Shown in pieces: positions 16,648 to 33,053 of a stretch of 33,176 bases of DNA. Source of the DNA: Ruminococcus sp. (lineage in GTDB: Bacteria > Bacillota > Clostridia > Oscillospirales > Ruminococcaceae); assembly GCA_017523285.1 (NCBI GenBank), contig JAFWWU010000113.1, positions 1 to 33,176 on the forward strand, given 5' to 3'. The notes under the pieces were generated by a model. The model was not told the DNA's origin, ran no database searches, and saw only the letters and a program-made list of their open reading frames with translations. A program made the position numbers and the translations under genes. The first letter of the stretch is position 1; each line of letters starts with the position of its first letter.

Positions 16648-16696
16648 TGTTATGCCTTTCTGTGTTTACTTTTTCTATTTTATATAAATATTTAAT

Positions 16697-16725
16697 ATTA
16701 TATCACGGCATACAATAATTGTCAA
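16697..16725 (-). promoter_or_regulatory. Promoter of the lipoprotein esterase gene
   Basis: On the minus strand a perfect TTGACA (16725-16720), 17-bp spacer and perfect TATAAT (16702-16697). A GTAGGGG-type palindrome starts only 7 bp beyond the -35 box. Confidence 0.88.
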
Positions 16726-16727
16726 TA

Positions 16728-16872
16728 GTATGGGCGGATATCATCCGCCCTACATAACGGGATGCCGAGGGCGGCATCCCCTACACAGCAAAACAAACGC
16801 AAAACCAATCGGGCGGATAATATCCGCCCCTACACAACGGGACTTTGAATCATAAATCCTCGATGTTGAGTT
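16728..16872. repeat. Palindrome cluster 1 (A, B, A) plus 68-bp repeat copy 1
   Basis: It contains family A GGGCGGAT-ATC-ATCCGCCC (16732-16750), family B GGGATGCCG-AGGG-CGGCATCCC (16759-16780) and family A GGGCGGATAATATCCGCCC (16811-16829). An A/C-rich spacer (AAACAAACGCAAAACCAATC) separates the last two. Bases 16805-16872 are repeated exactly at 17426-17493, and 16759-16829 recur at 18371-18441. Confidence 0.92.
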
Positions 16873-17263
16873 ATCGTTTTTCTGAAATAGGATTTATCTT
16901 CAAAACCCATTTCAAACGTATTGGAGATATCTCAATGACAAAATGTTTTTCATTTATATTTGTACCTGGATGTGATGTTGTAATATCAATCGTTACATCA
17001 GCAATTGTAGCTTTTTGAAAATACTGAGAATCACCCAAAACAATATATTGGGCACCAATATAATCTATATATCCACTTGGTTCAGGATTCAACGGTAATA
17101 CTTCAAATGGCTTTGTTATGTCTATCCCAATATTTTTTAAATAAGTACTAAGCTGTGGATAAGTTGCTTCAATTTCATGTATATAGTTTTTACAATATAC
17201 ACATTTGCACAAATATGAAGATGCTATCTCACTATAAAATTCTATGTTTTTTTGAATATCCAA
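16871..17263 (-). CDS. Conserved-type hypothetical protein with an N-terminal CxxC
   Basis: The 130-aa protein opens with a four-cysteine-free but CxxC-bearing motif (YLCKCVYCKNYIHEIEATYP), followed by YLKNIGIDITKPFEVLPLNP, then a beta-rich C-terminal part. Similar small proteins with a C-x-x-C-R/K-N-Y start and a GID..KP.E motif are common in Firmicutes, but I know of no assigned function. The start is TTG with AAAGGGGTG upstream. The stop codon uses the last two bases of a 68-bp repeat, and the same repeat lies upstream of the gene's promoter, so the gene is bracketed by direct repeats. Confidence 0.7.
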   Translation of the reverse strand: MDIQKNIEFYSEIASSYLCKCVYCKNYIHEIEATYPQLSTYLKNIGIDITKPFEVLPLNPEPSGYIDYIGAQYIVLGDSQYFQKATIADVTIDITTSHPGTNINEKHFVIEISPIRLKWVLKINPISEKR

Positions 17264-17319
17264 TTTAACACCCCTTTATCAAATACCTGTTTGGTTTATC
17301 GTTCTATTCGATTTTCCAT

Positions 17320-17328
17320 ATTATACCA
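17320..17328 (-). promoter_or_regulatory. Extended -10 promoter of the CxxC hypothetical gene
   Basis: TGGTATAAT on the minus strand (TATAAT at 17325-17320) is an extended -10. The -35 position falls at the edge of a family B palindrome and is a poor match. Confidence 0.5.
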
Positions 17329-17345
17329 CAATATGCAATAATCTT

Positions 17346-17493
17346 GTAGGGGATGCCGCCCTCGGCATCCCGTTTTATATATACCGTTTTGAAACGTTGA
17401 ATCCGAACGATTTTTTTCATATTACCCAATCGGGCGGATAATATCCGCCCCTACACAACGGGACTTTGAATCATAAATCCTCGATGTTGAGTT
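17346..17493. repeat. Palindrome cluster 2 (B, A) plus 68-bp repeat copy 2
   Basis: Family B GGGATGCCG-CCCT-CGGCATCCC lies at 17350-17371 in the orientation opposite to cluster 1, and family A GGGCGGATAATATCCGCCC at 17432-17450. Bases 17426-17493 duplicate 16805-16872. The segment after the A palindrome (GGGAC...CCTCGATGTTGAG) resembles a decayed family C palindrome. Confidence 0.9.
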
Positions 17494-17545
17494 TGCGTTA
17501 TAATAATTTTTCAGTATTCTTATTTTCTGATTAATGCAGATACTT

Positions 17546-18223
17546 TTAGATTGTAGCTAACACATTTATTATCATATGAACTGCTATAGGACAAAATATA
17601 TTATTAGATAGCACATAAACTATTCCGAACATTAATCCCATTAACATTTGCGGAATAACAGTTAGTATTTCCATGGCAGAAAAATCTATATAATTACAAT
17701 GAATCATTCCAAATAATATTGCTCCTACAATAATAGATATTACTATTCTGACTTTGCCTGATTTTTCACCTTTTATTGCGCCCAGTACAATCCCTCTATG
17801 AATAAATTCTTCAACCAGTGGTCCGAAAAGACATGCCGGTAACACCATAAATATACCATAATTTGTAACTGCATCATCCACAGCTTTCTGATTGTCACTC
17901 TCACCAATACCGCAGATATCCAGAATAATCGCAGCCACAACAACCAAAATAATTGTGATGAAAGCACATATAGCAATTATAGGAATGTATTTTTTTAAAT
18001 TGTTTTTAAAATCCTTTAGACATTTATATAGTGTTTTCCGAAAAATAATAACGTAGAATAAAAATAAACCTCCATAATACACAAGGTCAATATACTTTAT
18101 TGCGTTTTCATAACCAAATGTATTAATTATCAATTCGGGTTGTGTTTCTATAAAAAGCATCAATGCCACAAAAACTAATATTGATATTAAACAACGCAAC
18201 CTGTTTTCTTTTGTTAATAGCAT
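17546..18223 (-). CDS. CPBP-family intramembrane metalloprotease
   Basis: The 225-aa membrane protein has the three CPBP/Abi motifs: EExxxR at Glu138-Glu139...Arg143 (VEEFIHRG), FxxxH ending at His175 (FGMIH), and HxxxN at His216...Asn220. About six hydrophobic helices are visible. Family members process CAAX proteins in eukaryotes. In bacteria many act in bacteriocin self-immunity or maturation, or in membrane protein turnover. No bacteriocin gene is next to it, so the role is open. It is monocistronic with a good promoter. Confidence 0.9.
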   Translation of the reverse strand: MLLTKENRLRCLISILVFVALMLFIETQPELIINTFGYENAIKYIDLVYYGGLFLFYVIIFRKTLYKCLKDFKNNLKKYIPIIAICAFITIILVVVAAIILDICGIGESDNQKAVDDAVTNYGIFMVLPACLFGPLVEEFIHRGIVLGAIKGEKSGKVRIVISIIVGAILFGMIHCNYIDFSAMEILTVIPQMLMGLMFGIVYVLSNNIFCPIAVHMIINVLATI

Positions 18224-18303
18224 AATCGTATACCTCTCAATTTTTTGATATTATCTGTTAGTTAAGTATGTGTCAGATTCTTATGAACAGTTATTTTTCC
18301 TAT

Positions 18304-18332
18304 ATTATATCACAACGCACAGTATTTTTCAA
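18304..18332 (-). promoter_or_regulatory. Promoter of the CPBP protease gene
   Basis: On the minus strand TTGAAA (18332-18327), 17-bp spacer, perfect TATAAT (18309-18304). A decayed family A palindrome starts about 7 bp beyond the -35. Confidence 0.82.
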
Positions 18333-18338
18333 TATTTT

Positions 18339-18495
18339 GTAGGCACGGATATCATCCACCCCTACATAAAGGGATGCCGAGGGCGGCATCCCCTACACAG
18401 CAAAACAAACGCAAAACCAATCGGGCGGATAATATCCGCCCATACAAAACAACATTCCGCAATTCAAAAGGGATATCGAGGGTGTAATCCCATAC
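18339..18495. repeat. Palindrome cluster 3 (A', B, A, B')
   Basis: A decayed family A element (18342-18362, GGCACGGAT-ATC-ATCCACCCC) is followed by intact B (18371-18392) and intact A (18423-18441). A decayed B sits at 18470-18491, keeping the outer GGGAT/ATCCC but losing two inner pairs. Bases 18371-18441 match 16759-16829. The cluster fills the gap between the divergent CPBP and asnS promoters. Confidence 0.9.
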
Positions 18496-18520
18496 AACAG
18501 TTAAAATTTTCTCCGAAACC

Positions 18521-18549
18521 TTGACATATAGCGTGAAAAGTGGTAAAAT
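18521..18549 (+). promoter_or_regulatory. Promoter of the asnS T-box transcript
   Basis: TTGACA (18521-18526), 17-bp spacer, TAAAAT (18544-18549). The start point would be near 18556, about 290 nt upstream of asnS. Confidence 0.82.
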
Positions 18550-18555
18550 AAAAAG

Positions 18556-18830
18556 TAGTTTTCTTAAAATGCTATGACTGAGAGAAGTAATGCGGATTTT
18601 TTCGTTCACAGAGAGTGCGGGTAAAGGTGTGAGCCGTATAATGAATGTCGTATGAATAACACTCACGAGCAGCAATCTGAAAGTCTTTGCGATTATTAGG
18701 TGCGCCGTTTCACTGTGCGTTAAACAGTTTCAGAGTGACTGCCGTTTCTGCGGCGGTAATTCAGGTGGTACCACGGATTTATTCTCCGTCCTGTTTTTTA
18801 GCGGGACGGAGTATTTTTTTATTTTTGAAA
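18556..18830 (+). promoter_or_regulatory. T-box riboswitch controlling asnS
   Basis: The leader carries the T-box core TCAGGTGGTACCACGG (18760-18775), which pairs with the uncharged tRNA acceptor end. An intrinsic terminator follows: CTCCGTCC (18784-18791) / GGACGGAG (18804-18811) and a long T tract. A likely stem I lower helix GTGAG/CTCAC (about 18628-18666) encloses AATAACA, offering an AAC asparagine specifier at 18658-18660. Uncharged tRNA-Asn would then stabilise the antiterminator and turn on asnS. The T-box call is firm; the specifier position is my reading of the fold. Confidence 0.88.
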
Positions 18831-18845
18831 GGATGGATTTTATTT

Positions 18846-20219
18846 ATGAAGCATATTGATATAAGAGAGGTTGTTAATTCTCCTGAGCTTATCAATCAGA
18901 TAGTAACTGTATGCGGTTGGGTGCGTACATCAAGAAATTCAAAGAACGTAGCTTTTATTGAGCTAAACGACGGTACAACATTCAAGCATATACAGATTGT
19001 TGTTGACAAGGGCGGCTGTCCTGATTACAAGGAGCCTCGTGTAGGTACTTCACTTAAGGTTGAAGGTAAGCTTGTTGAGGGCAGAAACAATACTGTTGAA
19101 ATCTGCACTGAGCCTGAGAATATTGTAATTCTTGGTGATTGTCCGACAGATTATCCGCTTCAGAAAAAGGGACACACTCTTGAATTCCTCCGTACAATGC
19201 CACACCTCAGAGGAAGAACAAATACATTCAACGCTGTATTCAGAGTTCGTTCAGTTATGGCTGACGCTGTTCACGATTACTTCCAGAGCAAGAACTTCGT
19301 TTATGTAAATACACCTCTTATCACAGGCAGTGACTGTGAGGGTGCAGGCGAAATGTTCCAGGTTACAACAAACGGCTATACAAACGAGTTCAAGAGCGAG
19401 GAAGAATACTACTCAAACGACTTCTTCGGCAAGAAGGCAGGACTTTCAGTTTCAGGTCAGCTTGAGGGTGAGGTTGCCGCTATGGCATTCGGTAAAATCT
19501 ATACTTTCGGTCCAAGCTTCAGAGCTGAAAACAGTAACACTCCGAAGCACCTTGCTGAATTCTGGCACGTTGAACCTGAGATTGCTTTTGCTGAGCTTCC
19601 TGAAATCATTGAAACAGCAGAGGATATGATTAAGACTGTTATCCGCAATGTACTCGATAAATGTCCTGATGAAATGAAGTTCTTTGACGCTCATTTTGAA
19701 AAGGGAATTATTGCACGTCTTGAAGACCTCATCAGCCACGACTTTGCAACTGTAACTTATACAGAGGCTATCAAGCTCCTCAAGGAATCAGGAGAAGAAT
19801 TCCAGTATCCTGTTGACTGGGGCTGTGACCTCCAGACAGAGCATGAAAGATATATCTCTGAAAAGGTATTCAAGAAGGCTGTTTTTGTAACAGATTATCC
19901 AAAGGAAATCAAGTCATTCTATATGAAGCAGAATCCAGACGGCAAGACAGTTGCCGCAGTTGACCTTCTCGTTCCTGGTGTAGGTGAAATCATCGGCGGA
20001 AGTGAGCGTGAGGCTGATTACGATAAACTTGTTGCTGCTATGGAAGAAAGAAATATGAATCTTGAGCTTTACACAGACTATCTTGACCTCAGAAAATACG
20101 GTTCAGTACCTCACGGCTGATTCGGCCTTGGTTTCGAGCGTCTTATTATGTACATCACAGGCGTATCAAATATCCGTGACGTAATTCTTTACCCAAGAAC
20201 AGTAGGAAATGTAAGATAA
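18846..20219 (+). CDS. asnS: Asparaginyl-tRNA synthetase, interrupted by an in-frame TGA at codon 425
   Basis: AsnRS charges tRNA-Asn. The protein starts [20 protein letters not shown] with an OB-fold anticodon-binding domain, followed by the class IIb catalytic core ([20 protein letters not shown], then the [34 protein letters not shown] and [20 protein letters not shown] blocks). ATG 18846 follows AAAGGA; upstream in-frame codons lie inside the T-box leader. At 20118-20120 a TGA sits after GSVPHG, exactly where a glycine is expected in the family's [11 protein letters not shown]-type motif 3. The same frame continues [20 protein letters not shown] and on to TAA at 20217. Without readthrough the protein lacks motif 3 and its ATP-binding arginine. 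TGA is an ordinary stop elsewhere in this window, for example ftsZ, hicB and the araC gene. Confidence 0.9.
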
Positions 20220-20252
20220 GAAAATATTTGTTTCAAGGGTTGATGATATAGC

Positions 20253-20298
20253 GTAGGGGATGCCGTACCCATGGGGCATAAATCCTCAGCATCCCACC
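20253..20298. repeat. Family B palindrome with an enlarged loop
   Basis: GTAGGGGATGC...GCATCCC keeps the outer arms (20257-20263 / 20289-20295), but the 4-nt loop is replaced by about 25 nt containing CCCATGGG and a second TGCC/GGCA pairing. It looks like one palindrome disrupted by, or recombined with, another sequence. Confidence 0.75.
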
Positions 20299-20350
20299 AA
20301 ACTCATACGGAAAACATAAAATCAATTTTAAAATAAAATGGAGTAAGAAT

Positions 20351-21544
20351 ATGAAAAAAGCATTAATATTAGCACTGGTTCTCTCCCTTTTAACTTCAGT
20401 TTCTTGTGAAAAAAATGATAAGAAAAAAGCTTCTTCTGAAATATCCTCGGAAGCTTCACAGGAATATTCTTCTGAAAAAGAAGAAAAAGAAAATGATGAA
20501 GAATCTGAGAGCGAAGCCGAAGAAAAAACCGAAACTGAAACACAACCGAAAACAACTCAGGACGAAGAAGATAAACACATTATCGAAGATGAAGACCCTG
20601 CTGAAAAATCAATGAGAATTAATGAGATAAAAAGAAAATTAAAAGCCGATGATGACGGATTTCTCATTGAAGATGGAATCTTATATGATTATGAGGGCGT
20701 TTCGTCTATCGTTGTTATTCCCGATAATGTAATATATATTGAAAGTCAGGCGTTCTGGAGCAATGATGTTATTGAGGCAGTCTATATTCCTTCATCTGTA
20801 AAGGAAATCGGCGAGAGTGCATTCTGGAGCTGCAGCGGACTGAAGTTTGTTGACGTCGAAGAGGGACTTGAAAAAATCAACAGTAGTGTTTTCTGGTCTT
20901 GCAGCGGACTTGAAAATGTAAATCTTCCTGCAAGTTTGAATGATATTGAACGTTCTGTATTCTGGGCAATGGATGAGCTTACAATACATGCTCCGTCAGG
21001 CTCATACGCTGAAAGCTTTGCAAAAAATAACGGATTTGATTATTCGTCGGATTATCATGAATATCAGAAATCAGACCGTAAAAATCTTATCAGAGCTTCA
21101 CAATATGCTGGTAATGAGTTTACAGAATTTCAGATTCCTTCAAACATCAAGGGGATTGACGCATGTGCATTTCAGTATTGTAAAAAACTGAAAGAAATAA
21201 CTATTCCGTCTAATGTAGAATATATAGGTGCAGATGCTTTTGAATATTGCTATGGACTTAAAAAGGTTGTAATAGACGGATGCCGTGAAATAAAATCAGA
21301 AGCATTTGAATATTGTGAATCACTTGAAATGCTTCGCATTAAAGAGGGAACGGAAAAAATAGGTAGTAGTGCTTTTGCTTATTGTGATAAGCTGAAAGAT
21401 ATTTATCTTCCTGCAAGTGTAAGCAATATCGACAAAAGAGCTTTTGAATATTGTTCGCCTGACCTTGTGCTTCATGTGCCTGCAGGTTCATATGCAGAAG
21501 ATTACGCAATGGCTCTTAATATTCCTTTTGATAACAATATATAA
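20351..21544 (+). CDS. Lipoprotein with BspA-type leucine-rich repeats
   Basis: The signal MKKALILALVLSLLTSVSC gives a lipidated Cys19. A very acidic, Ser/Glu/Lys-rich linker (about 20-95) should hold the domain off the membrane. The rest is LRR_5 (BspA-like) repeats, used by gut bacteria for adhesion and protein binding. The repeats fall into two blocks: one built on AFWSCSGL-like units (about 135-210) and one on AFEYCxxL-like units (about 275-375), each closed by a HxPxGSYAE cap. The outer surface is probably the binding face; no partner is known. GGAGTAAG precedes the ATG. Confidence 0.88.
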   Translation: MKKALILALVLSLLTSVSCEKNDKKKASSEISSEASQEYSSEKEEKENDEESESEAEEKTETETQPKTTQDEEDKHIIEDEDPAEKSMRINEIKRKLKADDDGFLIEDGILYDYEGVSSIVVIPDNVIYIESQAFWSNDVIEAVYIPSSVKEIGESAFWSCSGLKFVDVEEGLEKINSSVFWSCSGLENVNLPASLNDIERSVFWAMDELTIHAPSGSYAESFAKNNGFDYSSDYHEYQKSDRKNLIRASQYAGNEFTEFQIPSNIKGIDACAFQYCKKLKEITIPSNVEYIGADAFEYCYGLKKVVIDGCREIKSEAFEYCESLEMLRIKEGTEKIGSSAFAYCDKLKDIYLPASVSNIDKRAFEYCSPDLVLHVPAGSYAEDYAMALNIPFDNNI

Positions 21545-21559
21545 TTGTTTCTCCAACCA

Positions 21560-21746
21560 AATCGGGCGGATGGTATCCGCCCCTACGAAAATAATTAATA
21601 CAATTTGTAGGGGACGGCATCTCGACGTCCCACAAAATACACAATTGTAGGGGATGCCGCCCTCGGCATCCCGTGTAATCGTGTAGGGGAAGATATCATC
21701 TTCACGAAAAAAACACAACCAAATCGGGCGGATAATATCCGCCCAC
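21560..21746. repeat. Palindrome cluster 4 (A, C, B, D, A)
   Basis: It contains A GGGCGGAT-GGT-ATCCGCCC (21564-21582), C GGGACG...CGTCCC (21611-21631), B GGGATGCCG-CCCT-CGGCATCCC (21651-21672), D GAAGAT-ATC-ATCTTC within GTGTAGGG...CAC (21681-21705), and A GGGCGGATAATATCCGCCC (21725-21743). All four families occur in under 200 bp between the LRR gene and asnA. Confidence 0.92.
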
Positions 21747-21776
21747 GCAAAAAATTAATATAGGAAAGTGGTAATT

Positions 21777-22787
21777 ATGTCAAGAACACTTATTATTCCT
21801 GAAAAATACAAATCTGTCCTTACGCTGAGAGAAACTCAGCACGCTATAAAATATATCAAGGACCTTTTTCAGCAGACTCTTTCTTTTGCTCTTACACTTG
21901 ATCGTGTAACTGCTCCGCTTCTTGTACGCAAGGGAAGCGGTATAAACGACGACCTGAACGGCGTAGAGCGTAAGGTTGAATTTTCATTGAAGGAAATGGA
22001 TTTTGAAGCCGAGGCTGTACAGTCACTTGCAAAATGGAAGAGAATGGCTCTCTATCGCTACGGCTACAATGAGGGCGAGGGCATCTATACAGATATGAAC
22101 GCTATCCGCCGTGATGATGACGCTGATAATATCCATTCGGTTTTCGTTGACCAATGGGACTGGGAAAAGGTTATCAGCAGAGATAAGAGAACTATTGATT
22201 TCCTCAAAGAAAACGTATGCGCTATCGTAAAGGCAGTTGCTTTCACAAAGAGAAAGGTAAATCTTAGATATCCACAGCTTAAAGGAACAGTATGCGATAC
22301 TCCGTTTTTCATCACATCGCAGGAGCTTGAGGATATGTATCCCGATAAAACTCCGAAAGAGCGTGAAAACCTCATCACAAAAGAGCATGGCACAGTTTTC
22401 ATTATGCAGATAGGAAATGTGCTTAAAAGCGGAAACAAGCATGACGGAAGAGCTCCCGATTATGACGACTGGGCACTTAACGGTGATTTGCTTTTCTGGA
22501 ATGATGTTCTTGGCAATGCTCTTGAAATATCCTCAATGGGTATCAGAGTAGATGAGAATTCACTCCGTTCACAGCTTAAAGAGTGTAACGCAGAGGATCG
22601 TCTTGCATTTGAATATCACAGAATGGTAGCAGACGGAACACTCCCACTTACAATCGGCGGCGGCATAGGACAATCAAGACTTTGTATGCTTCTGCTTGAA
22701 AAGGCTCATATCGGAGAAGTTCAGGTTTCAATATGGCCTGATGAAATGATAAAGACCTGTGCGGAAAACGGAATAACATTGTTATAA
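21777..22787 (+). CDS. asnA: Aspartate--ammonia ligase (asparagine synthetase A)
   Basis: AsnA makes asparagine from aspartate, ammonia and ATP (forming AMP) and is structurally related to class II aminoacyl-tRNA synthetases. The 336-aa protein has the family blocks IPEKYKSVLTLRETQHAIKY at the N-terminus, FALTLDRVTAPLLVRKGSGI (about 40-60), the NGVERKVEF segment, YTDMNAIRRDDD, HSVFVDQWDWEKV, and the C-terminal LTIGGGIGQSRLCMLLL that binds ATP. ATG 21777 is preferred with AGGAAAG upstream; GTG 21768 is too close to that site. With asnS nearby it forms an asparagine-related neighbourhood, though no T-box lies directly before it. Confidence 0.95.
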   Translation: MSRTLIIPEKYKSVLTLRETQHAIKYIKDLFQQTLSFALTLDRVTAPLLVRKGSGINDDLNGVERKVEFSLKEMDFEAEAVQSLAKWKRMALYRYGYNEGEGIYTDMNAIRRDDDADNIHSVFVDQWDWEKVISRDKRTIDFLKENVCAIVKAVAFTKRKVNLRYPQLKGTVCDTPFFITSQELEDMYPDKTPKERENLITKEHGTVFIMQIGNVLKSGNKHDGRAPDYDDWALNGDLLFWNDVLGNALEISSMGIRVDENSLRSQLKECNAEDRLAFEYHRMVADGTLPLTIGGGIGQSRLCMLLLEKAHIGEVQVSIWPDEMIKTCAENGITLL

Positions 22788-22798
22788 TCGTGCGTATT

Positions 22799-23055
22799 GT
22801 AGGGGACGGCGTCCTCGATGTCCCACAAAACAATTATAATGTAATTGTAGGGGATGCCGCCCTCGGCATCCCGCAAAACAAACGCTAATCAATCGGGCGG
22901 ATGATATCCGCTCCTACGGAAATGATTAATCCAATTTGTAGGGGACGGCATCCTCGATGTCCCACAGAATATCATATAAACAAATGGGATGCCGAGGGCG
23001 GCATCCCCTACGCGAAATAAACGCAAAACAATCAGGCGGATGATGTCCGCCAATA
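22799..23055. repeat. Palindrome cluster 5 (C, B, A, C, B, A)
   Basis: The C-B-A order occurs twice. The first set is C 22803-22824, B 22851-22872 and A 22895-22914 (one arm base changed). The second is C 22942-22963, B 22986-23007 (inverted relative to the first B) and A 23035-23051 (GGCGGA-TGATG-TCCGCC). The B-A spacer again carries AAACAAACGC-like or AAATAAACGC-like sequence. The cluster fills the whole 311-bp gap before the first phenylacetate-CoA ligase gene; no gene was seen in it. Confidence 0.92.
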
Positions 23056-23098
23056 CGGAACAGGTTAAGATATAAAATAACGAAAGGAAGTTTTTAAG

Positions 23099-25200: not shown

Positions 25201-25201
25201 A

Positions 25202-26932
25202 ATGAAGAAATTAATGCTTGGAAACGAGGCCTTTGCAAGAGGTCTTTACGAGGCAGGCTGTAAGGTAGTATCAAGCTATCCCGGTACTCCTTCAACTGAA
25301 ATCACAGAATATGTTGCTAAGTATGACGAGGTTTATGCTGAATGGGCACCAAATGAAAAGGTTGCTATGGAGGCTGCTCTCGGTGCGTCAATTGCAGGCG
25401 CAAGAAGCTTCTGCGGAATGAAGCACGTTGGTCTTAACGTAGCCGCAGACCCTCTCTACACAGCAGCATACACAGGTGTAAACGGCGGTATGGTTATCGC
25501 TGTTGCAGACGACCCCGGTATGCACTCATCACAGAACGAGCAGGACAGCCGTCATCACGCAATTGCGGCAAAGGTTCCTATGCTTGAACCTTCAGATTCA
25601 TCTGAATGTAAGGAATTCGTAAAAATCGCATTCGACCTTTCAGAAGAATTTGACGCACCTTTCATCGTAAGAATGTCAACAAGAGTTGCACACTCACAGA
25701 GCGTTGTAGAGCTTTGCGACAGAGATGAAAAGGAGCTTAAGGAATATACAAAAAATCCTCAGAAATACGTTATGATGCCTGCATTTGCAAGAGGCAGACA
25801 CGTTTTCGTTGAAGAAAGAACAGCAAAGCTTACAGAATACGCAGAAACATCAGCACTCAACAGAACAGAGCTTTCAGACAAGGCTGAATTCGGTGTTATT
25901 ACAAGCGGTGCGGCTTACCAGTACGCAAAGGAAGCTCTCGGCGAAAAAGCTTCAATCTTAAAGCTTGGTATGGTAAACCCACTTCCTGTAAAGCTTATTC
26001 AGGATTTCGCTTCAAAGTTTGAAACAGTTTACATAATCGAAGAGCTTGACGGCATTATCGAACAGCACTGTAAAAATATCGGTGTTACAAATGTTAAGGG
26101 CAATGAAATCTTCGGCTTAATCGGTGAATTATCACAGTCAATCATTGCAGAAAAGCTCCTCGGAGTAAAGAACGAATACAAGGAATTCGGCGAGAATGTT
26201 CCTGTACGTCCTCCTGTAATGTGTGCAGGATGTCCTCACAGAGGTCTTTTCTACTGTCTTTCAAAGCTTAAGGTTACAGTTTCAGGCGATATCGGATGCT
26301 ATACACTCGGCGCATCAGCACCTCTCTCAGCTATGGATACAACAATCTGTATGGGTGCATCAATTTCAGCGCTTCACGGCTTCAACAAGGCAAGAGGAAG
26401 CGAAGCTGAAAAGAGCAGTGTAGCTGTTATCGGTGATTCAACCTTTATGCACAGCGGTATGACAGGTCTTGTAAATATCGCATACAACTCAACAAACTCA
26501 ACTGTTATTATCCTTGATAACTCAATCACAGGTATGACAGGTCATCAGCAGAATCCTACAACAGGCAAGAACTTAAAGGGCGACCCTGCTGCCGCAGTTA
26601 ATCTTGAAGAGCTTTGCAAGGCTATCGGATTCAAGCGTGTAAGAGTTGTTGACCCATATTCACTTGCTGAAACAGAAGCCGCTATCAAGGAAGAGCTTGC
26701 TGCTGAAGAGCCATCTGTTATCATTTCAAGACGTCCATGTGCACTTCTCAAGTATGTACAGCATAAGCCTGCACTTGCAGTTGATACAGATAAATGCGTT
26801 GGCTGTAAGATGTGTATGAAGCTCGGATGTCCTGCAATTTCAATGAAGGACGGCAAGGCAGTTATTGACCATACACAGTGCGTAGGCTGTGGAATCTGTC
26901 AGGAAATGTGCAAAATCGGTGCTATCAAGTAA
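25202..26932 (+). CDS. iorA: Indolepyruvate:ferredoxin oxidoreductase, alpha subunit
   Basis: IorA with IorB converts aryl-pyruvates (from aromatic amino acids) and CoA to aryl-acetyl-CoA, CO2 and reduced ferredoxin, or the reverse. The protein starts with a pyrimidine-binding domain (SSYPGTPSTEITEY), continues with the thiamine diphosphate domain (MCAGCPHRGLFYCL, then GDSTFMHSGMTGLVNIAYN with the LDNSITGMTGHQQNP loop), and ends with two 4Fe-4S motifs (CVGCKMCMKLGCP and CVGCGICQEMC, about 530-570). The length of 576 aa and domain order are typical. Its partner iorB is not adjacent but about 2 kb downstream. Confidence 0.96.
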   Translation: MKKLMLGNEAFARGLYEAGCKVVSSYPGTPSTEITEYVAKYDEVYAEWAPNEKVAMEAALGASIAGARSFCGMKHVGLNVAADPLYTAAYTGVNGGMVIAVADDPGMHSSQNEQDSRHHAIAAKVPMLEPSDSSECKEFVKIAFDLSEEFDAPFIVRMSTRVAHSQSVVELCDRDEKELKEYTKNPQKYVMMPAFARGRHVFVEERTAKLTEYAETSALNRTELSDKAEFGVITSGAAYQYAKEALGEKASILKLGMVNPLPVKLIQDFASKFETVYIIEELDGIIEQHCKNIGVTNVKGNEIFGLIGELSQSIIAEKLLGVKNEYKEFGENVPVRPPVMCAGCPHRGLFYCLSKLKVTVSGDIGCYTLGASAPLSAMDTTICMGASISALHGFNKARGSEAEKSSVAVIGDSTFMHSGMTGLVNIAYNSTNSTVIILDNSITGMTGHQQNPTTGKNLKGDPAAAVNLEELCKAIGFKRVRVVDPYSLAETEAAIKEELAAEEPSVIISRRPCALLKYVQHKPALAVDTDKCVGCKMCMKLGCPAISMKDGKAVIDHTQCVGCGICQEMCKIGAIK

Positions 26933-26948
26933 TTATACGGAGTAAGCT

Positions 26949-27329
26949 ATGGAAATTTATATCGAATTTGAAAAATGGCTGAGTAAGCTTCTTGAAAATG
27001 ATATGCCCGATAATACAGCCGCATATAATTTCAATATCTATGAAGAAGAGGACGAAACCTACGGCGTACAGCTTATTGCATCAGATGAATTTTCAGAAGA
27101 TGACGATGACTGGGCTTGTTCTGAAATATGGTCAAGCGAGGAAGAAATCTTCTATATCGACCATTCAGATGAAAAGGATGCAGACAGAGAGCGTGGACTT
27201 GAATTTATAAGTCAGCTTATATGCGATTATCTTGAAAAGGGTGAAAAGGCTGATAAGCTTAAAGCTGTAAAGGCTGTCGGTGCAGGCTTTGTTGACGGTG
27301 ATCTGAAAATTTTATATAAGGAAGCTTAA
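26949..27329 (+). CDS. Acidic hypothetical protein (first gene of the cassette between iorA and iorB)
   Basis: This 126-aa soluble protein is very acidic (IYEEEDETYG, SEDDDDWACSE, SSEEEIFYIDHSDEKDA). It has predicted alternating strands and helices and no signal or membrane segment. I do not recognise the family; the compact acidic fold is reminiscent of immunity-type or SMI1-like proteins, but no motif proves this. It begins 16 bp after iorA with GGAGTAAG, so it is probably on the same transcript. Confidence 0.7.
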   Translation: MEIYIEFEKWLSKLLENDMPDNTAAYNFNIYEEEDETYGVQLIASDEFSEDDDDWACSEIWSSEEEIFYIDHSDEKDADRERGLEFISQLICDYLEKGEKADKLKAVKAVGAGFVDGDLKILYKEA

Positions 27330-27332
27330 TCT

Positions 27333-27584
27333 ATGAACAGAAAAAAGCTTTCAACGAAAAATATATACGAATTGGTTCTGTTCCTGCTGTTTATTGCTGT
27401 AACAGCGGTGCTTGAAATTCCGTTTATATATCAGGTTGCAATCCTTGTTGCTGTTATAGGTATTTACAAATTCACTGAGCATCTTATTGAAAGCAAAAAG
27501 GTGAAGAATACTGCTGAGGCGGCTTATACAGAGCAGACAGGCGTTTTTCCTGCCGATAAGCAAGGTAAAGAAAACGATGATTGA
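27333..27584 (+). CDS. Small two-helix membrane protein (cassette gene 2)
   Basis: The 83-aa protein has two hydrophobic segments (about 11-29 and 33-50) and a hydrophilic C-terminal tail ending GKENDD. It starts 3 bp after the previous stop and overlaps the next gene by 8 bp, so translation of the set is likely coupled. No family is recognised. Confidence 0.7.
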   Translation: MNRKKLSTKNIYELVLFLLFIAVTAVLEIPFIYQVAILVAVIGIYKFTEHLIESKKVKNTAEAAYTEQTGVFPADKQGKENDD

Positions 27585-28302
27585 CAAAAAGAATTTTATA
27601 ATCAGGCTTCTTGTATCAATTTTGTTCTGGATAATCTTAGTTATATGCTTTATCAAGTTGATGAGTGATGAAGAAAAGATAGTTTATGGAATAGTTTTTA
27701 CAATTAGTATGATTATGGTTATAATCGAAAGTCTTCTGAGAACAAGCTATAAGAAAAAGAAAAAAAACGGAGAGTTATCGACTGACGGTGAAATGCCGAG
27801 AGAAATTTTTCTTGACAAGGATGGAAACGAGATAACTAATGAAATACCGAGAGAAGTTATTCTTGACAAGGACGGAAATGATATATCGTCAGATTTTGAC
27901 ATTCATTCAGACAGTGCATTGCTAAATGTGATAAATGATGTTATCACAGAAACGTCACTTCCCTATATAGACGACATCAACTCGGTGATAGATACGTTTA
28001 AAAAGGACAAAGAATATATTAAGGCGAAGCAAAACGGCGAGCTTCCACACGATAAATACAATCAATACATGATAGACAAAGCAAGAGAGTTACATGAAAT
28101 GGAAGAGGAACAAAAAAGCAGATATGTCTATGTGAATGATAATGCAGCAATGGAATCTCTTACAGCAAATGTGAATAATGAAATTGCTCACGCAGAACAT
28201 AATGGAAACGCTTTTATGCCGACAATATCCACAGAGAATTTTGATATGCAAAATACAGAAAATGATGATGCAGATATAAAGAACGGAGAAAACAATGCAT
28301 AG
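27577..28302 (+). CDS. Two-TM protein with duplicated LDKDGNE/DI motif (cassette gene 3)
   Basis: The 241-aa protein has two N-terminal membrane helices (about 8-28 and 36-54), then a basic patch YKKKKKNG. The motif PREIFLDKDGNEIT (about 74-87) recurs as PREVILDKDGNDIS (about 91-104). A helical region follows with RELHEMEEEQKSRYVYVNDN (about 170-189) continuing AAM, then an Asn/Asp/Glu-rich tail. The D-x-D-G-N unit looks like a short Ca-binding-type turn, but no full EF-hand is present. It is a paralogue of the next gene. ATG overlaps the upstream stop by 8 bp. Function unknown; the topology suggests a membrane-anchored cytosolic domain. Confidence 0.75.
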   Translation: MIDKKNFIIRLLVSILFWIILVICFIKLMSDEEKIVYGIVFTISMIMVIIESLLRTSYKKKKKNGELSTDGEMPREIFLDKDGNEITNEIPREVILDKDGNDISSDFDIHSDSALLNVINDVITETSLPYIDDINSVIDTFKKDKEYIKAKQNGELPHDKYNQYMIDKARELHEMEEEQKSRYVYVNDNAAMESLTANVNNEIAHAEHNGNAFMPTISTENFDMQNTENDDADIKNGENNA

Positions 28303-28939
28303 AAACAGAAGCTTTACGGTTAAGCTCGTGATCGCTCTCGCAACACTTCTTCTTATCATTATTATATGTGCAGGAGTATTCTCGAAACTTCCGACAGAGG
28401 ACAGGATAATATTTGTTCTTGTGGCTGTTTCTGTTATACTTACTCCTGCCTTGAATATGATGAAAAAGATTATATCGGGTATTCTCAGAAAGGGACTGCT
28501 CGGAGAAGATACAGAAAACAACCCGAAAGAAATAAAGCTTGATAAAGACGGAAACGAAATAACTCCGCTTACCGATGGTGCTCCGCAGTCAGACAATATT
28601 CTTGTTCAGGGAATATACAATGGCGTAACGGCAATCGGAAATTTCTGGCTCGATGCGGCTGAAAAGACTGCTGTAAAGCGAGAAAAGAGATATTACTGCC
28701 CGACGGTAAGGGCGGAAGAAAACGAAAGAGAAAGACGCAAGTCATTGAATGAGCTTCGTGAAGAAAGAGAAGAACTGATTCAGCAAAGACTTCAGGAGCA
28801 AAGAAGCAGATATGTCTATGAGGATGATGATGCCGCAATGGCACCGCTTATAACCGATGAGGCGTTTAAATCCGCAGAAAGCTCTGCTTTGCAGAATAAC
28901 GAAAACAACGATGATGATACTGAAATGAAAAGTATCTGA
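28295..28939 (+). CDS. Two-TM protein with LDKDGNEIT motif, paralogue of the preceding gene (cassette gene 4)
   Basis: The 214-aa protein repeats the plan of its neighbour: two membrane helices (about 9-28 and 37-56), one KEIKLDKDGNEIT motif (about 78-90), a charged coiled-coil-like helix (ERRKSLNELREEREELIQQR) running into SRYVYEDDDAAM (about 171-182), and an acidic Asn-rich tail. The middle region (YNGVTAIGNFWLDAAEKT) is not shared. The start overlaps the upstream stop by 8 bp. No enzyme or transport motif is visible. A weak hairpin (28953-28974) without a T tract separates it from iorB. Confidence 0.75.
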   Translation: MHRNRSFTVKLVIALATLLLIIIICAGVFSKLPTEDRIIFVLVAVSVILTPALNMMKKIISGILRKGLLGEDTENNPKEIKLDKDGNEITPLTDGAPQSDNILVQGIYNGVTAIGNFWLDAAEKTAVKREKRYYCPTVRAEENERERRKSLNELREEREELIQQRLQEQRSRYVYEDDDAAMAPLITDEAFKSAESSALQNNENNDDDTEMKSI

Positions 28940-28997
28940 AAAAACAAATAAGATACCTGAATATTAACAGGTATTGCCATAATAATGAGGTGTAAAT

Positions 28998-29573
28998 ATG
29001 GAAACTAAATCAATTATGATAGTCGGAGTCGGCGGACAGGGTTCACTCCTTGCTTCAAGACTTCTCGGCAATGTACTCCTTGCTCAGAATTACGATGTAA
29101 AGGTAAGCGAGGTACACGGTATGTCACAGCGCGGCGGCTCTGTTGTAACTTATGTTAAGTACGGCGACAAGGTATATTCTCCTGTTATCGAAAAGGGCGA
29201 GGCTGACGCTATTATTTCATTTGAAATGCTCGAAGCTGCAAGATGGCTTCCTTACCTTAAAAAAGGCGGTAAGATTATAACATCAACACAGTGCCTTTCA
29301 TCAATGCCTGTAATTACAGGTGCGGCTGTTTATCCTGAAAATATCCTTGACAAAATCAAGGCAGAGGGTGTTGACATTACAGCTGTTGACGCATTGAAGC
29401 TTGCAGAAGAGGCAGGAAATGCAAAGGCTTCAAACGTAGTGCTTATGGGTGTTGTTTCAAACAAAATGGACTTTGAAGAAAAGCTCTGGCAGGACGCAAT
29501 TGAGCAGTGTGTTCCTGAAAAATTCCTCGAACTCAATAAGAAAGCATTTGAACTCGGAAAGAATGCAGAATAA
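28998..29573 (+). CDS. iorB: Indolepyruvate:ferredoxin oxidoreductase, beta subunit
   Basis: This is the gamma-type domain partner of IorA. The N-terminal IMIVGVGGQGSLLASRLLGN is the family glycine-rich motif, followed by VSEVHGMSQRGGSVVTYVKY, which contacts thiamine diphosphate-bound intermediates in related enzymes. The 191-aa length is standard. GAGGTG precedes the ATG. In most genomes iorA and iorB adjoin; here a four-gene cassette lies between them, yet both look intact. Confidence 0.95.
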   Translation: METKSIMIVGVGGQGSLLASRLLGNVLLAQNYDVKVSEVHGMSQRGGSVVTYVKYGDKVYSPVIEKGEADAIISFEMLEAARWLPYLKKGGKIITSTQCLSSMPVITGAAVYPENILDKIKAEGVDITAVDALKLAEEAGNAKASNVVLMGVVSNKMDFEEKLWQDAIEQCVPEKFLELNKKAFELGKNAE

Positions 29574-29620
29574 TTGAAGCAAATCAATAAAATTCATTAA
29601 AATAAATGGAGGAAAAACCA

Positions 29621-30928
29621 ATGGAAAGATATTGGAATAAGGAAATGGAGTGCGCTACTCTCAGCGAAATGAAGGCACTCCAGAGCTTCCGTCTTTCACA
29701 GACAGTAAGACGTGTATATGAGAATGTTCCTGTATATCGTGAGAGAATGGACGCAGCAGGAGTAAAGCCTGAGGACATCAAAAGCGTAGATGACCTTTAT
29801 AAGCTTCCGTTTACTGTAAAGCAGGATTTGCGTGATACATATCCATACGGACTTTTTGCAGTTCCGATGGATAAGGTTGTAAGACTTCACGCATCAAGCG
29901 GTACAACAGGCAAGCAGATTGTCGTTGGCTACACAGAAAAGGACCTCGATACATGGGCTGAATGCTGTGCAAGAGCTTTAACTGCGGCAGGTGCTACAAA
30001 GAATGACTTTATGCACGTTTCATACGGCTATGGACTTTTCACAGGCGGTCTCGGACTTCACGGCGGTGCTGAAAAGGTTGGTATGACAGTTATCCCTGTT
30101 TCAACAGGCAATACTGCAAGACAGATTAATATTCTTCGTGATTTCGGTTCAACATATATATGCTGTACTCCGTCTTATGCTCTTTTCATTGCTGAAACAA
30201 TGGAAGAAATGGGCATCAGCAAGGACGAAATCAAGCTTAAAGCAGGTCTTTTCGGTGCAGAGCCATGGACAGAGGAAATGCGTCAGGAAATCGAGGAAAA
30301 GCTCGGCTGTAAGGCAATGGATATTTACGGACTTACAGAAATCATCGGCCCCGGTGTAGCATTCGAGTGCAGCGAGCAGTCAGGTATGCACATCAACGAG
30401 GATAACTTCATCGTTGAAACAATCGACCCTGATACAGGAGAGGTTCTCCCGGAGGGCTCACAGGGTGAAATCGTATTCACATGTATAACAAAGGAAGCAT
30501 TCCCGCTTATCCGTTACAGAACAAGAGATATCGGTATTCTCACAAGAGAAAAGTGCAGCTGTGGACGTACACTCATCAAGATGAAGAAGCCTGCCGGCAG
30601 AAGCGACGATATGCTTATCATCAGAGGTGTAAACGTATTCCCGTCACAGATTGAAAGTGTGCTTCTTTCACTTGGAAATACAGCTCCATACTACAAGCTT
30701 ATCGTTGACAGAGTAAACAATACAGATATGCTTGAAATTCAGGTAGAGCTTTCACAGGAAATGTTCTCAGATACAATCAAGAGCCTTGAGGAAGAAGAAA
30801 AGCGCATCAAGAACGCAATTGATTCAACTCTCGGTATCTCGGCAAAAATTACTCTTGTTGAGCCAAAAAGCATTGAACGTGTTGAAGGCAAGGCAGTAAG
30901 AGTTATTGATAAACGTAAATTACATTAA
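29621..30928 (+). CDS. Phenylacetate--CoA ligase (PaaK-type), copy 2
   Basis: A second aryl-CoA ligase, 435 aa, with HASSGTTGKQIVVGYTEKDL (about 88-107), YGLTEIIGPG, RYRTRDIG, and GRSDDMLIIRGVNVFPSQIE. It is clearly a paralogue of copy 1 but diverged throughout, so not a recent duplicate; the two may prefer different arylacetates. The ATG at 29621 has GGAGG 8 nt upstream. An ATG at 29606 overlaps that ribosome site and is rejected. Confidence 0.95.
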   Translation: MERYWNKEMECATLSEMKALQSFRLSQTVRRVYENVPVYRERMDAAGVKPEDIKSVDDLYKLPFTVKQDLRDTYPYGLFAVPMDKVVRLHASSGTTGKQIVVGYTEKDLDTWAECCARALTAAGATKNDFMHVSYGYGLFTGGLGLHGGAEKVGMTVIPVSTGNTARQINILRDFGSTYICCTPSYALFIAETMEEMGISKDEIKLKAGLFGAEPWTEEMRQEIEEKLGCKAMDIYGLTEIIGPGVAFECSEQSGMHINEDNFIVETIDPDTGEVLPEGSQGEIVFTCITKEAFPLIRYRTRDIGILTREKCSCGRTLIKMKKPAGRSDDMLIIRGVNVFPSQIESVLLSLGNTAPYYKLIVDRVNNTDMLEIQVELSQEMFSDTIKSLEEEEKRIKNAIDSTLGISAKITLVEPKSIERVEGKAVRVIDKRKLH

Positions 30929-30940
30929 GGAGGTTTGATT

Positions 30941-31375
30941 ATGAACAACATCAGACAGATTTCTGTTTTCGTTGAAAACAAGCAGGGCAGACTTTCAGCA
31001 ATTATCCGTATTTTAAAGGATAACGGAATTAACATCAGAGCAATTTCTATCGCAGACACTAAGGATTTCGGTATTTTAAGACTTATCGTAAGCGATCCTG
31101 ACCTTGCCTGCCAAAAGCTCAGAGAGCAGAAATGCACAGTAACAATTACAGAAGTAGTTGCAATTGAAATTCAGGACGAGCTCGGTATGCTCAGCAGCGT
31201 AATGGATATTCTTGCAGAGGATAAGGTAAATGTTGAATATATGTATGCATTCCTCAGCAAGTCAGACAATAAGGCTTCAATTATCCTCAGAGTTGACGAT
31301 AATGCTAAGGCAAGCGAGGCATTCAAGAAAGCAGGAGTTATCCAACTTACCGAAAATAACATCTGTGAATTGTAA
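30941..31375 (+). CDS. ACT-domain protein (tandem ACT)
   Basis: The 144-aa protein consists of two ACT folds: IRQISVFVENKQGRLSAIIR, and VVAIEIQDELGMLSSVMDIL. ACT domains bind amino acids and regulate enzymes. This family regularly accompanies PaaK and Ior genes, so it may sense an aromatic amino acid. AAGGAGG overlaps the stop of the upstream ligase gene and fixes the ATG at 30941. A TTG at 30935 is rejected on spacing. It closes the operon; no clear terminator was seen after it. Confidence 0.9.
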   Translation: MNNIRQISVFVENKQGRLSAIIRILKDNGINIRAISIADTKDFGILRLIVSDPDLACQKLREQKCTVTITEVVAIEIQDELGMLSSVMDILAEDKVNVEYMYAFLSKSDNKASIILRVDDNAKASEAFKKAGVIQLTENNICEL

Positions 31376-31412
31376 TAAATGCACAAACATCATATAGTTT
31401 TGCAAAAAAAGC

Positions 31413-31440
31413 TTGACATTTTTTTAAAATATTGTATAAT
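31413..31440 (+). promoter_or_regulatory. Promoter of the zinc-ribbon gene
   Basis: A perfect TTGACA (31413-31418), a 16-bp spacer containing an 8-T run, and a perfect TATAAT (31435-31440). Confidence 0.82.
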
Positions 31441-31490
31441 TATATATGAGGATTTATGCAGATAATTATGCAATATAGGAGTGATTTGAA

Positions 31491-31925
31491 ATGGGAATTC
31501 TCGATAAATTCAATGACGTCAGCAGAGGCGTGAATGATAAAGCCAAGAATATTTCTGAGGCTAATAATCTGAAAAGAAAGATTCTTTACGAGGAAGAAAG
31601 AATAGTTGAGATTTTTACTGATATCGGTAAGAAGTATTATAAAAATCCCGACGAAGATCCAAACGTATTCAGAGTTCTTTGTGAAGATATCGACACAAGA
31701 CGCAGACGTATCAAGAAAATGCGTTTTGAACTCAATCAGATAAGAGGATACAAGATTTGTCCTAAGTGTGACGCAGCTGTAAACGATAAGTTCCAGTTCT
31801 GCGGCGCTTGCGGTGCAAGACTTCCTGACCCTGAGGACGAGGACTTTACATCACTTGAAGAAAACGATTACTACACAGTAAACAGCGACAGCTTCTTCAA
31901 CGCTGATGCAAACAAGACATATTGA
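31491..31925 (+). CDS. Coiled-coil protein with a C-terminal zinc ribbon
   Basis: The 144-aa protein is helical and charged for about 90 residues (KAKNISEANNLKRKILYEEE), then has a double-CxxC zinc ribbon (CPKCDAAVNDKFQFCGACGA, about 99-118) and an acidic tail. Zinc ribbons of this short type are widespread in Clostridia as protein-interaction modules; no function is assigned. It is monocistronic with a strong promoter and terminator. Confidence 0.82.
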   Translation: MGILDKFNDVSRGVNDKAKNISEANNLKRKILYEEERIVEIFTDIGKKYYKNPDEDPNVFRVLCEDIDTRRRRIKKMRFELNQIRGYKICPKCDAAVNDKFQFCGACGARLPDPEDEDFTSLEENDYYTVNSDSFFNADANKTY

Positions 31926-31931
31926 TTTATC

Positions 31932-31964
31932 ATACCGCCTGATATATTCGGGCGGTATTTTTTT
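31932..31964 (+). terminator. Rho-independent terminator after the zinc-ribbon gene
   Basis: ATACCGCC (31932-31939) pairs with GGCGGTAT (31951-31958), followed by TTTTTTT. Confidence 0.92.
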
Positions 31965-31995
31965 GTATGTACGGCACTAATGGTGGAATTTTCTG

Positions 31996-32090
31996 TGTAG
32001 GGGCGGATATCATCCGCCCGATTTGTTTACGGGAAGATAATATCTTCCCCTACACTATCATGTGGGATGCCGAGGGCGGCATCCCCTACA
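31996..32090. repeat. Palindrome cluster 6 (A, D, B)
   Basis: A GGGCGGAT-ATC-ATCCGCCC (32001-32019), D GGGAAGATAATATCTTCCC (32031-32049) and B GGGATGCCG-AGGG-CGGCATCCC (32064-32085). The cluster opens with TGTAGGGG and closes with CCCCTACA. D differs from A GGGCGGATAATATCCGCCC at two base pairs, with complementary changes in both arms. The rest of the 311-bp gap (31926-32236) holds only a terminator and a promoter. Confidence 0.93.
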
Positions 32091-32165
32091 AAGCACCCTC
32101 GTTATGACACATATAATTATTTTTTAAATGTTAATACAATGTTAATCAAATACAAGGGTTATGTA

Positions 32166-32174
32166 TGATATAAT
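32166..32174 (+). promoter_or_regulatory. Extended -10 promoter of the frameshifted membrane gene
   Basis: TGATATAAT, an extended -10 element, ends at 32174. No good -35 is visible. Confidence 0.5.
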
Positions 32175-32236
32175 ATATACAAGTTGAACAAACGACTGAT
32201 CATAACATAAGCTTTTCAGAAAGGAGGCTGGGCTTT

Positions 32237-32517
32237 ATGTATAATGAAGGAATTGGTGCGTTAGGTGTTGGCTTACTCGGAATACTTGTTTTTTTGCACC
32301 TTGGATTATCGCACTTAGTTTTTTCATTGTATCTCTCACAAAAAGGATGAATGATAAAGGTGAAGACCCGAAAAAACGCAAAAAGCGCAATATCTTATTA
32401 ATCATATCAAGCATTTCCCTTGCGCTTGTCGTTGCGTATTATGTAGGTGATTTCCTCAGTTATGCATCAAGCGGTGCTTTAGAACACCAATGCGAAAACC
32501 CGAATTGCGGTAAGTAA
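32237..32517 (+). pseudogene. Small membrane protein gene with a frameshift in a T7 run
   Basis: AAGGAGG (32221-32227) and ATG 32237 begin MYNEGIGALGVGLLGILVF. At the T run 32289-32295 the frame leads to a stop at 32348. With one extra T the frame would continue FAPWIIALSFFIVSLTKRMN and KKRKKRNILLIISSISLALV to CENPNCGK and TAA at 32517. That gives a coherent 93-aa protein with two or three membrane helices and a basic loop. The gene is either broken, mis-sequenced, or decoded by slippage on the homopolymer. Confidence 0.65.
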
Positions 32518-32537
32518 TAAAAAGATTATCCTTACAG

Positions 32538-32605
32538 TAGGGGCGGATAGTATCCGCCCTGAGTTTTATGTATTACCCAATCGGGCGGATAATATCCGCC
32601 CCTAC
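32538..32605. repeat. Palindrome cluster 7 (A, A)
   Basis: GGGCGGATAGTATCCGCCC (32541-32559) and GGGCGGATAATATCCGCCC (32583-32601) in opposite flank orientation (GTAGGGG before the first, CCCCTAC after the second). The next promoter's -35 begins 13 bp further on. Confidence 0.92.
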
Positions 32606-32617
32606 ATAAATTAGTTA

Positions 32618-32646
32618 TTGACAAGCATTGTATGATATGGTACAAT
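32618..32646 (+). promoter_or_regulatory. Promoter of the 89-aa membrane protein gene
   Basis: A perfect TTGACA (32618-32623), 17-bp spacer, TACAAT (32641-32646). Confidence 0.8.
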
Positions 32647-32694
32647 ATGCTAAAAAGAATTTGCAGATAAGTATTTAAAAATGGAGGTTTCTTT

Positions 32695-32964
32695 ATGAAA
32701 CAAAACAGAAAAGACATATCCCTGACACATAAGATTGTAATAAATGTATCTGTTTTATTAAGTTTGTCAGTCATTGTATTGGCGATAATGCAGATGTTTA
32801 ATATTTGGGAAAATGCAATCAATGTATTTGTTCCACTTTGTGGTGTAATAAATCTTTGTCAGGCATATCTGCATTGGAATACGAGCCGAAAGACTGCGTA
32901 TTTCAGCATCGGCACGGCAGTGTTTATCTTCATCTGTGCTATCTTAGTCTTTTTTATCAAATAA
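32695..32964 (+). CDS. Small three-helix membrane protein
   Basis: The 89-aa protein has three hydrophobic stretches (about 14-32, 40-58 and 67-88) and ends in FFIK. It resembles small DUF3953-like membrane proteins in size and layout, but I cannot confirm the family. GGAGG precedes the ATG. Function unknown. Confidence 0.75.
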   Translation: MKQNRKDISLTHKIVINVSVLLSLSVIVLAIMQMFNIWENAINVFVPLCGVINLCQAYLHWNTSRKTAYFSIGTAVFIFICAILVFFIK

Positions 32965-32973
32965 CAAATACAA

Positions 32974-32985
32974 GTAGGGGCGGAT
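32974..32985. repeat. Half of a family A palindrome
   Basis: GTAGGGGCGGAT is present but the expected ATCCGCCC arm does not follow; the sequence changes to TATGGAAGTC at 32986. This is the only family A element in the window with one arm missing entirely. Confidence 0.7.
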
Positions 32986-33023
32986 TATGGAAGTCACCCA
33001 TAGGGAACAATAAAAATTTAAGT

Positions 33024-33053
33024 AATACGGAGAGTTTTTCAGCTCTCCGTATT
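33024..33053. terminator. Terminator between the membrane gene and the recombinase fragment
   Basis: AATACGGAGAG (33024-33034) pairs with CTCTCCGTATT (33043-33053). T-rich sequence follows on the plus strand and AAATTTTTATTG precedes it, so it may serve the leftward recombinase gene too. Confidence 0.75.

Follow-up and report, generated by a model that had tools for sequence, protein, structure and literature searches.

GTAG-type REP elements in a Ruminococcus genome and a RAYT gene with a translated pair of these hairpins

The window analysed here is the whole stretch of 33,176 nucleotides of contig JAFWWU010000113.1 from Ruminococcus sp. (assembly GCA_017523285.1). It contains 27 palindromic elements, whole or worn, all of which lie within 16.7–33 kb. 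These palindromes and their dispersed copies in the rest of the genome are repetitive extragenic palindromic (REP) elements of the GTAG type, with composites resembling bacterial interspersed mosaic elements (BIMEs) among them, which is the identity that an initial annotation of the window had proposed. The gene most likely to spread them lies on another contig and encodes a REP-associated tyrosine transposase (RAYT), and two copies of the same hairpin are found inside its coding sequence.

These REPs are palindromes of 20–40 bp with, in most, an unpaired GTAG at one foot only, and the four inner stems A to D are as first described. Type A is GTAG-GGGCGGAT-n3-ATCCGCCC, type B is GTAG-GGGATGCCG-n4-CGGCATCCC, type C is GTAG-GGGACGGCG-n4-CGACGTCCC with one pair mismatched, and type D is GTAG-GGGAAGAT-n3-ATCTTCCC. 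The list for the window was made by eye and then read back by script, and worn copies were included; the basis of each entry is given in brackets.

16728–16750, + strand, type A with head GTAT and CCCTAC at the other side (element list)
16759–16784, − strand, type B (exact B pattern, element list)
16811–16833, − strand, type A (loose pattern, element list)
17346–17371, + strand, type B (exact B pattern, element list)
17432–17454, − strand, type A; its right flank repeats the right flank of 16811–16833 (loose pattern, element list)
18339–18365, strand undefined, worn type A, headed at both ends by GTAG and CTAC (element list)
18371–18396, − strand, type B (exact B pattern, element list)
18423–18445, − strand, type A with head GTAT (element list)
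18470–18494, − strand, worn type B-like element (by eye)
20253–20295, + strand, type B with enlarged middle (by eye)
21564–21586, − strand, type A (loose pattern, element list)
21607–21631, + strand, type C (loose pattern, element list)
21647–21672, + strand, type B (exact B pattern, element list)
21683–21705, + strand, worn type D (element list)
21726–21748, − strand, type A stem without head (element list)
22799–22824, + strand, type C (loose pattern, element list)
22847–22872, + strand, type B (exact B pattern, element list)
22895–22917, − strand, type A with a single foot mismatch (element list)
22938–22963, + strand, type C (loose pattern, element list)
22986–23011, − strand, type B (exact B pattern, element list)
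23034–23056, − strand, worn type A (element list)
31997–32019, + strand, type A, left end of a 93-bp A-D-B composite (loose pattern, composite comparison)
32031–32053, − strand, type D, middle of the same composite (loose pattern, composite comparison)
32064–32089, − strand, type B, right end of the same composite (exact B pattern, composite comparison)
32537–32559, + strand, type A, first member of an inverted pair completed by 32583–32605 (loose pattern)
32583–32605, − strand, type A, inverted pair with the preceding element (loose pattern)
32974–32999, + strand, half type A element, 5' arm alone (element list)

The initial annotation had counted about 24 palindromes between 16.7 and 33 kb; their presence and coordinates were confirmed, and the count including worn copies is now 27. 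It had seen none in positions 1–16,600, and a hairpin scan likewise gave no GTAGGG-headed hairpin there. The same scan gave 15 in 16,601–33,176 against at most one in 100 dinucleotide shuffles of that part, which rules out chance palindromes. The frame GTAGGGG/CCCCTAC, described as common to all, is confined to the part from 16,778 onward, but GTAG stands at one end only in most elements. None of the 27 elements overlaps the eight window genes compared, and to that extent they are intergenic as claimed. Two mechanically called minus-strand open reading frames (ORFs) with TTG starts, 18352–18675 (107 aa) and 32532–32822 (96 aa), do overlap REPs and were left out of the gene set in this count. 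At Rfam gathering scores the sole match in 16,000–33,176 was a T-box at 18565–18796, and the REPs there match no known RNA family. The part 16600–33176 is a REP hot spot and holds seven of the 14 exact type B elements of the genome.

In the genome (2.84 Mb in 174 contigs, 97.5% complete), exact patterns found 32 copies of type A, 14 of B and three of C, with none for the reversed-pattern controls. Type B elements of G020 at C178:2902–2927 and C136:323–348 have the same positions as those in loci L018 and L004 of Ruminococcus sp. Horse_feces236, which points to a probably Ruminococcus-like genus. A loose REP pattern gave 88 matches, a few places being counted twice, compared with 22 for its reversed control. 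Typing of the window and of 31 further stretches, chosen for their loose-pattern matches, yielded 70 typed elements (45 A, 17 B, 4 C and 4 D) and four untyped ones; the element finder behind these counts overlooks some worn type C copies that the loose pattern lists. Only four of the 70 lie inside an ORF of at least 110 aa: two are in the RAYT gene, and Pfam gave no match for the ORFs that hold the other two. The ORFs L166 1642–2016 and L167 212–643, which contain a REP or start at one, have no Pfam match. Copies are thus many, dispersed and mostly intergenic, with inverted dimers and mosaics present. A few copies in the genome are headed at both ends:

C46:3692–3718, element headed at both ends
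C87:39505–39531, element headed at both ends

A composite of 93 bp with the order A(+)-D(−)-B(−), which starts with GTAG and ends with CTAC, occurs at three sites:

window 31997–32089, A-D-B composite
C98:53715–53807, A-D-B composite, 92/93 identical to the window copy
C148:2983–3075, A-D-B composite, 89/93 identical to the window copy

The 60-nt flanks of the three copies are unrelated, agreeing at 13 to 26 of 60 positions. Because near-identical composites with sharp GTAG/CTAC borders stand at three sites with unrelated flanks, we infer that they have moved as a unit. As the initial annotation had seen, two stem pairs distinguish types A and D, and the changes on the two arms are complementary (32001–32019 compared with 32031–32049). 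Since type D was found mainly within this composite, the A/D difference is best read as, for the most part, a single old event that has been inherited and since copied. Repeated independent compensation in the window was therefore replaced by one copied composite, although varied complementary stem changes do occur in the REPs inside RAYT genes described below.

The window has no RAYT gene, and the link to such a gene suspected at the outset was borne out by a search of the genome. The sole Y1_Tnp match (Pfam, 37.5 bits; cut-off 23) is on contig C23, separate from the window contig, and its product has 175 aa. The gene order is recF-remB-RAYT-gyrB, in which the names recF, remB and gyrB are our assignments from sequence. 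What the initial annotation had not foreseen is that two of these REPs lie within the gene itself. Its coding sequence carries GTAGGGGCGGATATTATCCGCCC, a family-A REP that is translated as the peptide VGADIIRP. A second family-A REP lies 180 nt further in inverted orientation and encodes GRIISAPT, so that two REPs inverted to each other bracket the HuH motif, one on each side. One type C REP is present immediately upstream of the gene.

In an alignment of 30 relatives the HuH, WQ and Tyr residues do not vary; the HuH motif reads DHIH in this genome, and both D and N are seen among relatives. Among solved structures, the E. coli RAYT in complex with a REP hairpin (4er8) has the nearest fold. 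The predicted structure has a mean predicted local distance difference test (pLDDT) score of 76.4, and the REP-coded residues 47–54 and 106–114 fall in low-confidence loops, with pLDDT below 50 at residues 47–49. In a profile alignment to the E. coli enzyme these residues have no counterpart. The NCBIfam model NF047646 (RAYT / TnpAREP) gave 66.5 bits, which is below its curated cut-off of 80 and well above the 24.8 bits of the IS200 model NF033573 (cut-off 55). A canonical IS200/IS605 element was ruled out by the single gene copy, the NF033573 score and the constant locus (13 of 30 remB loci). As in RAYT / TnpAREP systems, a single gene stands with REPs at and in it.

Relatives were compared in two samples. 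In the genus sample of 60 genomes, 31 had a protein match, and G030 was excluded as an unrelated protein. The remaining 30 were counted as RAYT genomes, some with broken copies or remnants only. Eight of the 50 genus loci were dropped before pair counts (L057, L058, L059, L068, L074, L076, L077 and L079); these are fragments, one beside an N run, plus L059, judged unrelated by sequence without a family search. L067, which has HuH and Tyr and a shifted N-terminus, was counted among the genes and excluded from the tree. In the class sample, 109 of 292 genomes searched had a match, and the 30 best-match loci were used, one being this genome's own.

HuH and Tyr are preserved in one frame in 31 genus RAYT genes. 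Of these, 29 carry two internal REPs, in 28 cases around HuH, and two (L037 and L041) carry a single one. L073 (986–1534), a different RAYT of G034, has its internal pair elsewhere, with each of the two sites located after HuH, and this points to more than one origin of internal pairs. With broken genes included, 33 of the 42 kept genus loci have both REPs. Over 62 genes (the genus genes and 29 further class genes), 46 have both, 13 have one and three have none.

As a rule, the two sites of a gene are alike. Their 9-nt arms are identical in 30 of the 33 two-REP loci, though about a dozen types exist. Mean arm identity is 0.990 within a gene's own pair and 0.578 across genes, and none of 20,000 permutations reached the observed agreement. 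The two sites present opposite strands to translation, and a common demand on the peptide therefore cannot account for identical DNA. Aligned codons that specify the same residue are identical in 496 of 531 cases inside REPs compared with 2415 of 4122 outside, in 41 gene pairs with at least 60% core identity, chosen blind to REP type, with Met and Trp excluded. An earlier codon test (369/382 compared with 1364/2378) was set aside, as it was grouped by REP type and partly true by construction. The constraint at the hairpin level that had been proposed from the window is also seen in the stems. Among the distinct internal REPs, the 23-nt form (25 elements) has Watson-Crick pairs in 193 of 200 stem cells and the 26-nt form (27 elements) in 220 of 243, whereas the best of 2000 shuffles gave 167 and 183, respectively. 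The encoded peptides vary widely while the stems stay paired, and both peptides change with REP type.

In a tree built without the REP residues, the types follow the core protein. Type A forms one clade, type E forms one clade with F nested in it, and type C is unresolved at the base; the tree was made by a quick method and 23 of its 59 inner branches are open. Some RAYT genes of different type are still at least 60% alike in the core protein. RAYT stands between remB and gyrB in 13 of 30 remB loci, including that of this genome, and types A, C, E and F are all represented among the 13. Genes at the same chromosomal position thus differ in REP type, and they do so at both of their internal sites. 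At 13 remB loci of genomes without RAYT (including G030), nine gaps are 45–173 nt long, three are longer and one reaches a contig end. In both G041 and G006, the remB–gyrB gap holds RAYT remnants. In L111, L118 and L130 the RAYT gene or its remnant ends in TGG AGG TAA, and these codons overlap with the gyrB ribosome-binding site.

The internal type was compared with the dispersed copies, from which internal copies were subtracted within the genus. The median number of dispersed type A copies was 51.5 in the six genomes with internal A and 4 in the 24 other RAYT or remnant genomes. Type C and type E showed the same trend more weakly, with 22 (five genomes with internal C) compared with 8 (25 others), and 19 (seven genomes with internal E) compared with 0 (23 others). 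One-sided Mann-Whitney P values, which ignore kinship, were 0.00017 for A, 0.018 for C and 0.0052 for E. The 30 genomes without RAYT hold in total one A, six C and two E copies. Across the 60 genomes, 28 have both an A, C or E REP and RAYT, four have REP only, two have RAYT only and 26 have neither. Outside the genus, the C pattern was counted with internal copies included and found 49 times in G073, 35 in G309, three in G130 and once in G097, all four of which carry C in RAYT. Among genomes without this expectation it was present in G274 (four), G161 (one) and G205 (one) and absent from 22. The GGGAGCGCA pattern was found 20 times in G236 and eight times in G255, both of which carry it in RAYT, and twice in G196, with none in 26 genomes; G236, G255 and G196 belong to one genus.

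Our data point to a RAYT that carries its own REP pair as the probable agent of REP spread, with the pair presumably kept as a nucleic-acid site that links the enzyme to its substrate. The HuH/Y1 enzyme would act on single-stranded hairpins and cleave REPs, which would then spread singly and as BIME composites bounded by GTAG and CTAC. Movement is suggested both by the composites and by the co-occurrence of RAYT and REPs across genomes. The internal pair is a putative site at which the enzyme binds the gene or the message that encodes it; such binding might provide feedback control and couple the enzyme to its substrate. A switch of REP type in a lineage would then affect the two internal copies and the dispersed family jointly.

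Several observations weigh against this explanation. Types B, C and D have no matching internal REP in the only Y1 gene found in this genome; they may either be used in trans by this one enzyme or be left over from lost enzymes. G008 with 36 type A copies and G045 with 54 type E copies have no matching internal REP among the loci read. Once internal copies are set aside, G130 and G097 have one and zero dispersed C copies, and three genomes not expected to have C carry one, one and four. Four genus genomes hold REPs and no RAYT was found in them. The group of RAYT genomes includes some with only broken copies or remnants, and the P values for the type match take no account of relatedness.

An extended form of the explanation, a specificity lock, appears doubtful to us at present. 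In this form the transposase gene would have to carry its own DNA substrate twice, in translated form, and neither the enzyme nor the REP family could change without the other, because the internal pair would be the site through which the enzyme detects and restrains its own gene. RAYT beside gyrB would be a hub with several type switches (C to A, C to E and E to F), the genome being reseeded each time; these directions are read from the incompletely resolved tree. The finding bears on the matching of RAYTs to REPs and on the birth of new REP families. The different internal types at one chromosomal place are natural swaps with which specificity, feedback and REP movement could be studied, and a simple rule is suggested, that the substrate of a RAYT may be predictable from its own coding sequence.

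The main rival, which is possible but which we consider unlikely, is that the internal REPs are tolerated passengers in two permissive loops without a role of their own, kept alike by gene conversion or by repeated exchange with the dispersed pool. The low-confidence loops without E. coli counterpart agree with this, such loops are termed peripheral by Quentin et al. 2018 (PMC6006769), and the E. coli rayT coding sequence has no GTAG hairpin. Exchange with the pool would also account for the match of internal and dispersed type. Loss is possible, as the 13 genes with one REP and the three with none indicate. However, a passenger should be lost more often than is seen: both sites are present in 29 of the 31 genes in which HuH and Tyr are preserved and in 46 of the 62 genes of genus and class.

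It is improbable that the dispersed hairpins are host terminators or stabilisers of mRNA ends with an incidental link to RAYT. The hairpins are intergenic and G+C-rich, and nine of 22 terminator-like sites (shuffle mean 11.6) are REPs, but 18 of the 27 elements fail the T-run rule of the terminator scan. The identical composites bounded by GTAG/CTAC and the way in which REP presence tracks RAYT presence also argue against this role. Least probable is that the REP-coded peptides are the recognition loops of the enzyme, so that the substrate encodes its reader and specificity is self-encoded: both peptides change with REP type and the 3' loop directly precedes helix 115–130, which by position may correspond to the DNA-contacting alpha3 in the description of the E. 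coli enzyme in PMC8266576, but model confidence is low in the loops, the E. coli enzyme has no counterpart of them and the constraint is at the codon level, beyond that of the peptide.

One feature of the window stands apart from the REPs. The T-box leader lies ahead of asnS (18846–20219), which has an in-frame TGA at 20118–20120 after which the frame continues to 20219. The TGA sits where the conserved glycine of the motif would be expected. TGA ends another ORF of the window (31491–31925) and thus acts as a stop codon in this genome.

The system resembles E. coli REP / rayT in its HuH/Y1 enzyme and in the GTAG-headed REPs beside the gene. In E. coli, GTAG hairpins were found only in the 300-nt flanks of rayT and none within its coding sequence, unlike here. 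The GTAG REP families of Di Nocera et al. 2013 (PMC3733652) share with the present elements the unpaired GTAG at one end of a 20–40 bp palindrome, the intergenic position, the inverted dimers and the RAYT association. The main text of that paper, which does not contain the words Clostridi, Ruminococc or Firmicut, describes intragenic REPs in other genes and REPs at RAYT flanks, some overlapping gene ends, whereas here they are inside RAYT. The literature searched gave no account of these Clostridial REPs, a pair around HuH, concerted type change or a match to dispersed families.

REPs inside tnpAREP genes with the frame intact have already been published for TnpAY1 subclass 2.4 / RAYT group 4 (Quentin et al. 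2018, PMC6006769). By its in-frame internal REPs and its YIxNNP and WQ motifs, the RAYT described here appears to be of that kind. According to the passages of that paper on subclass 2.4, its members resemble our system in the GTAG foot, in a stem whose lowest pairs are G-C, in 'double foot' forms and in an insertion that follows the HuH strand and precedes the next helix. The key motif is given there as NH[IFV]H, where the gene of this genome has DHIH, and the subclass is described as abundant in Cyanobacteria and Bacteroidetes, with a scattered presence in other groups; the present case is in Clostridia. Insertions are generally placed there between HuH and Y, whereas here an inverted pair flanks HuH with one site upstream. 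In a further difference from the account in those passages, both sites are alike here and change together.

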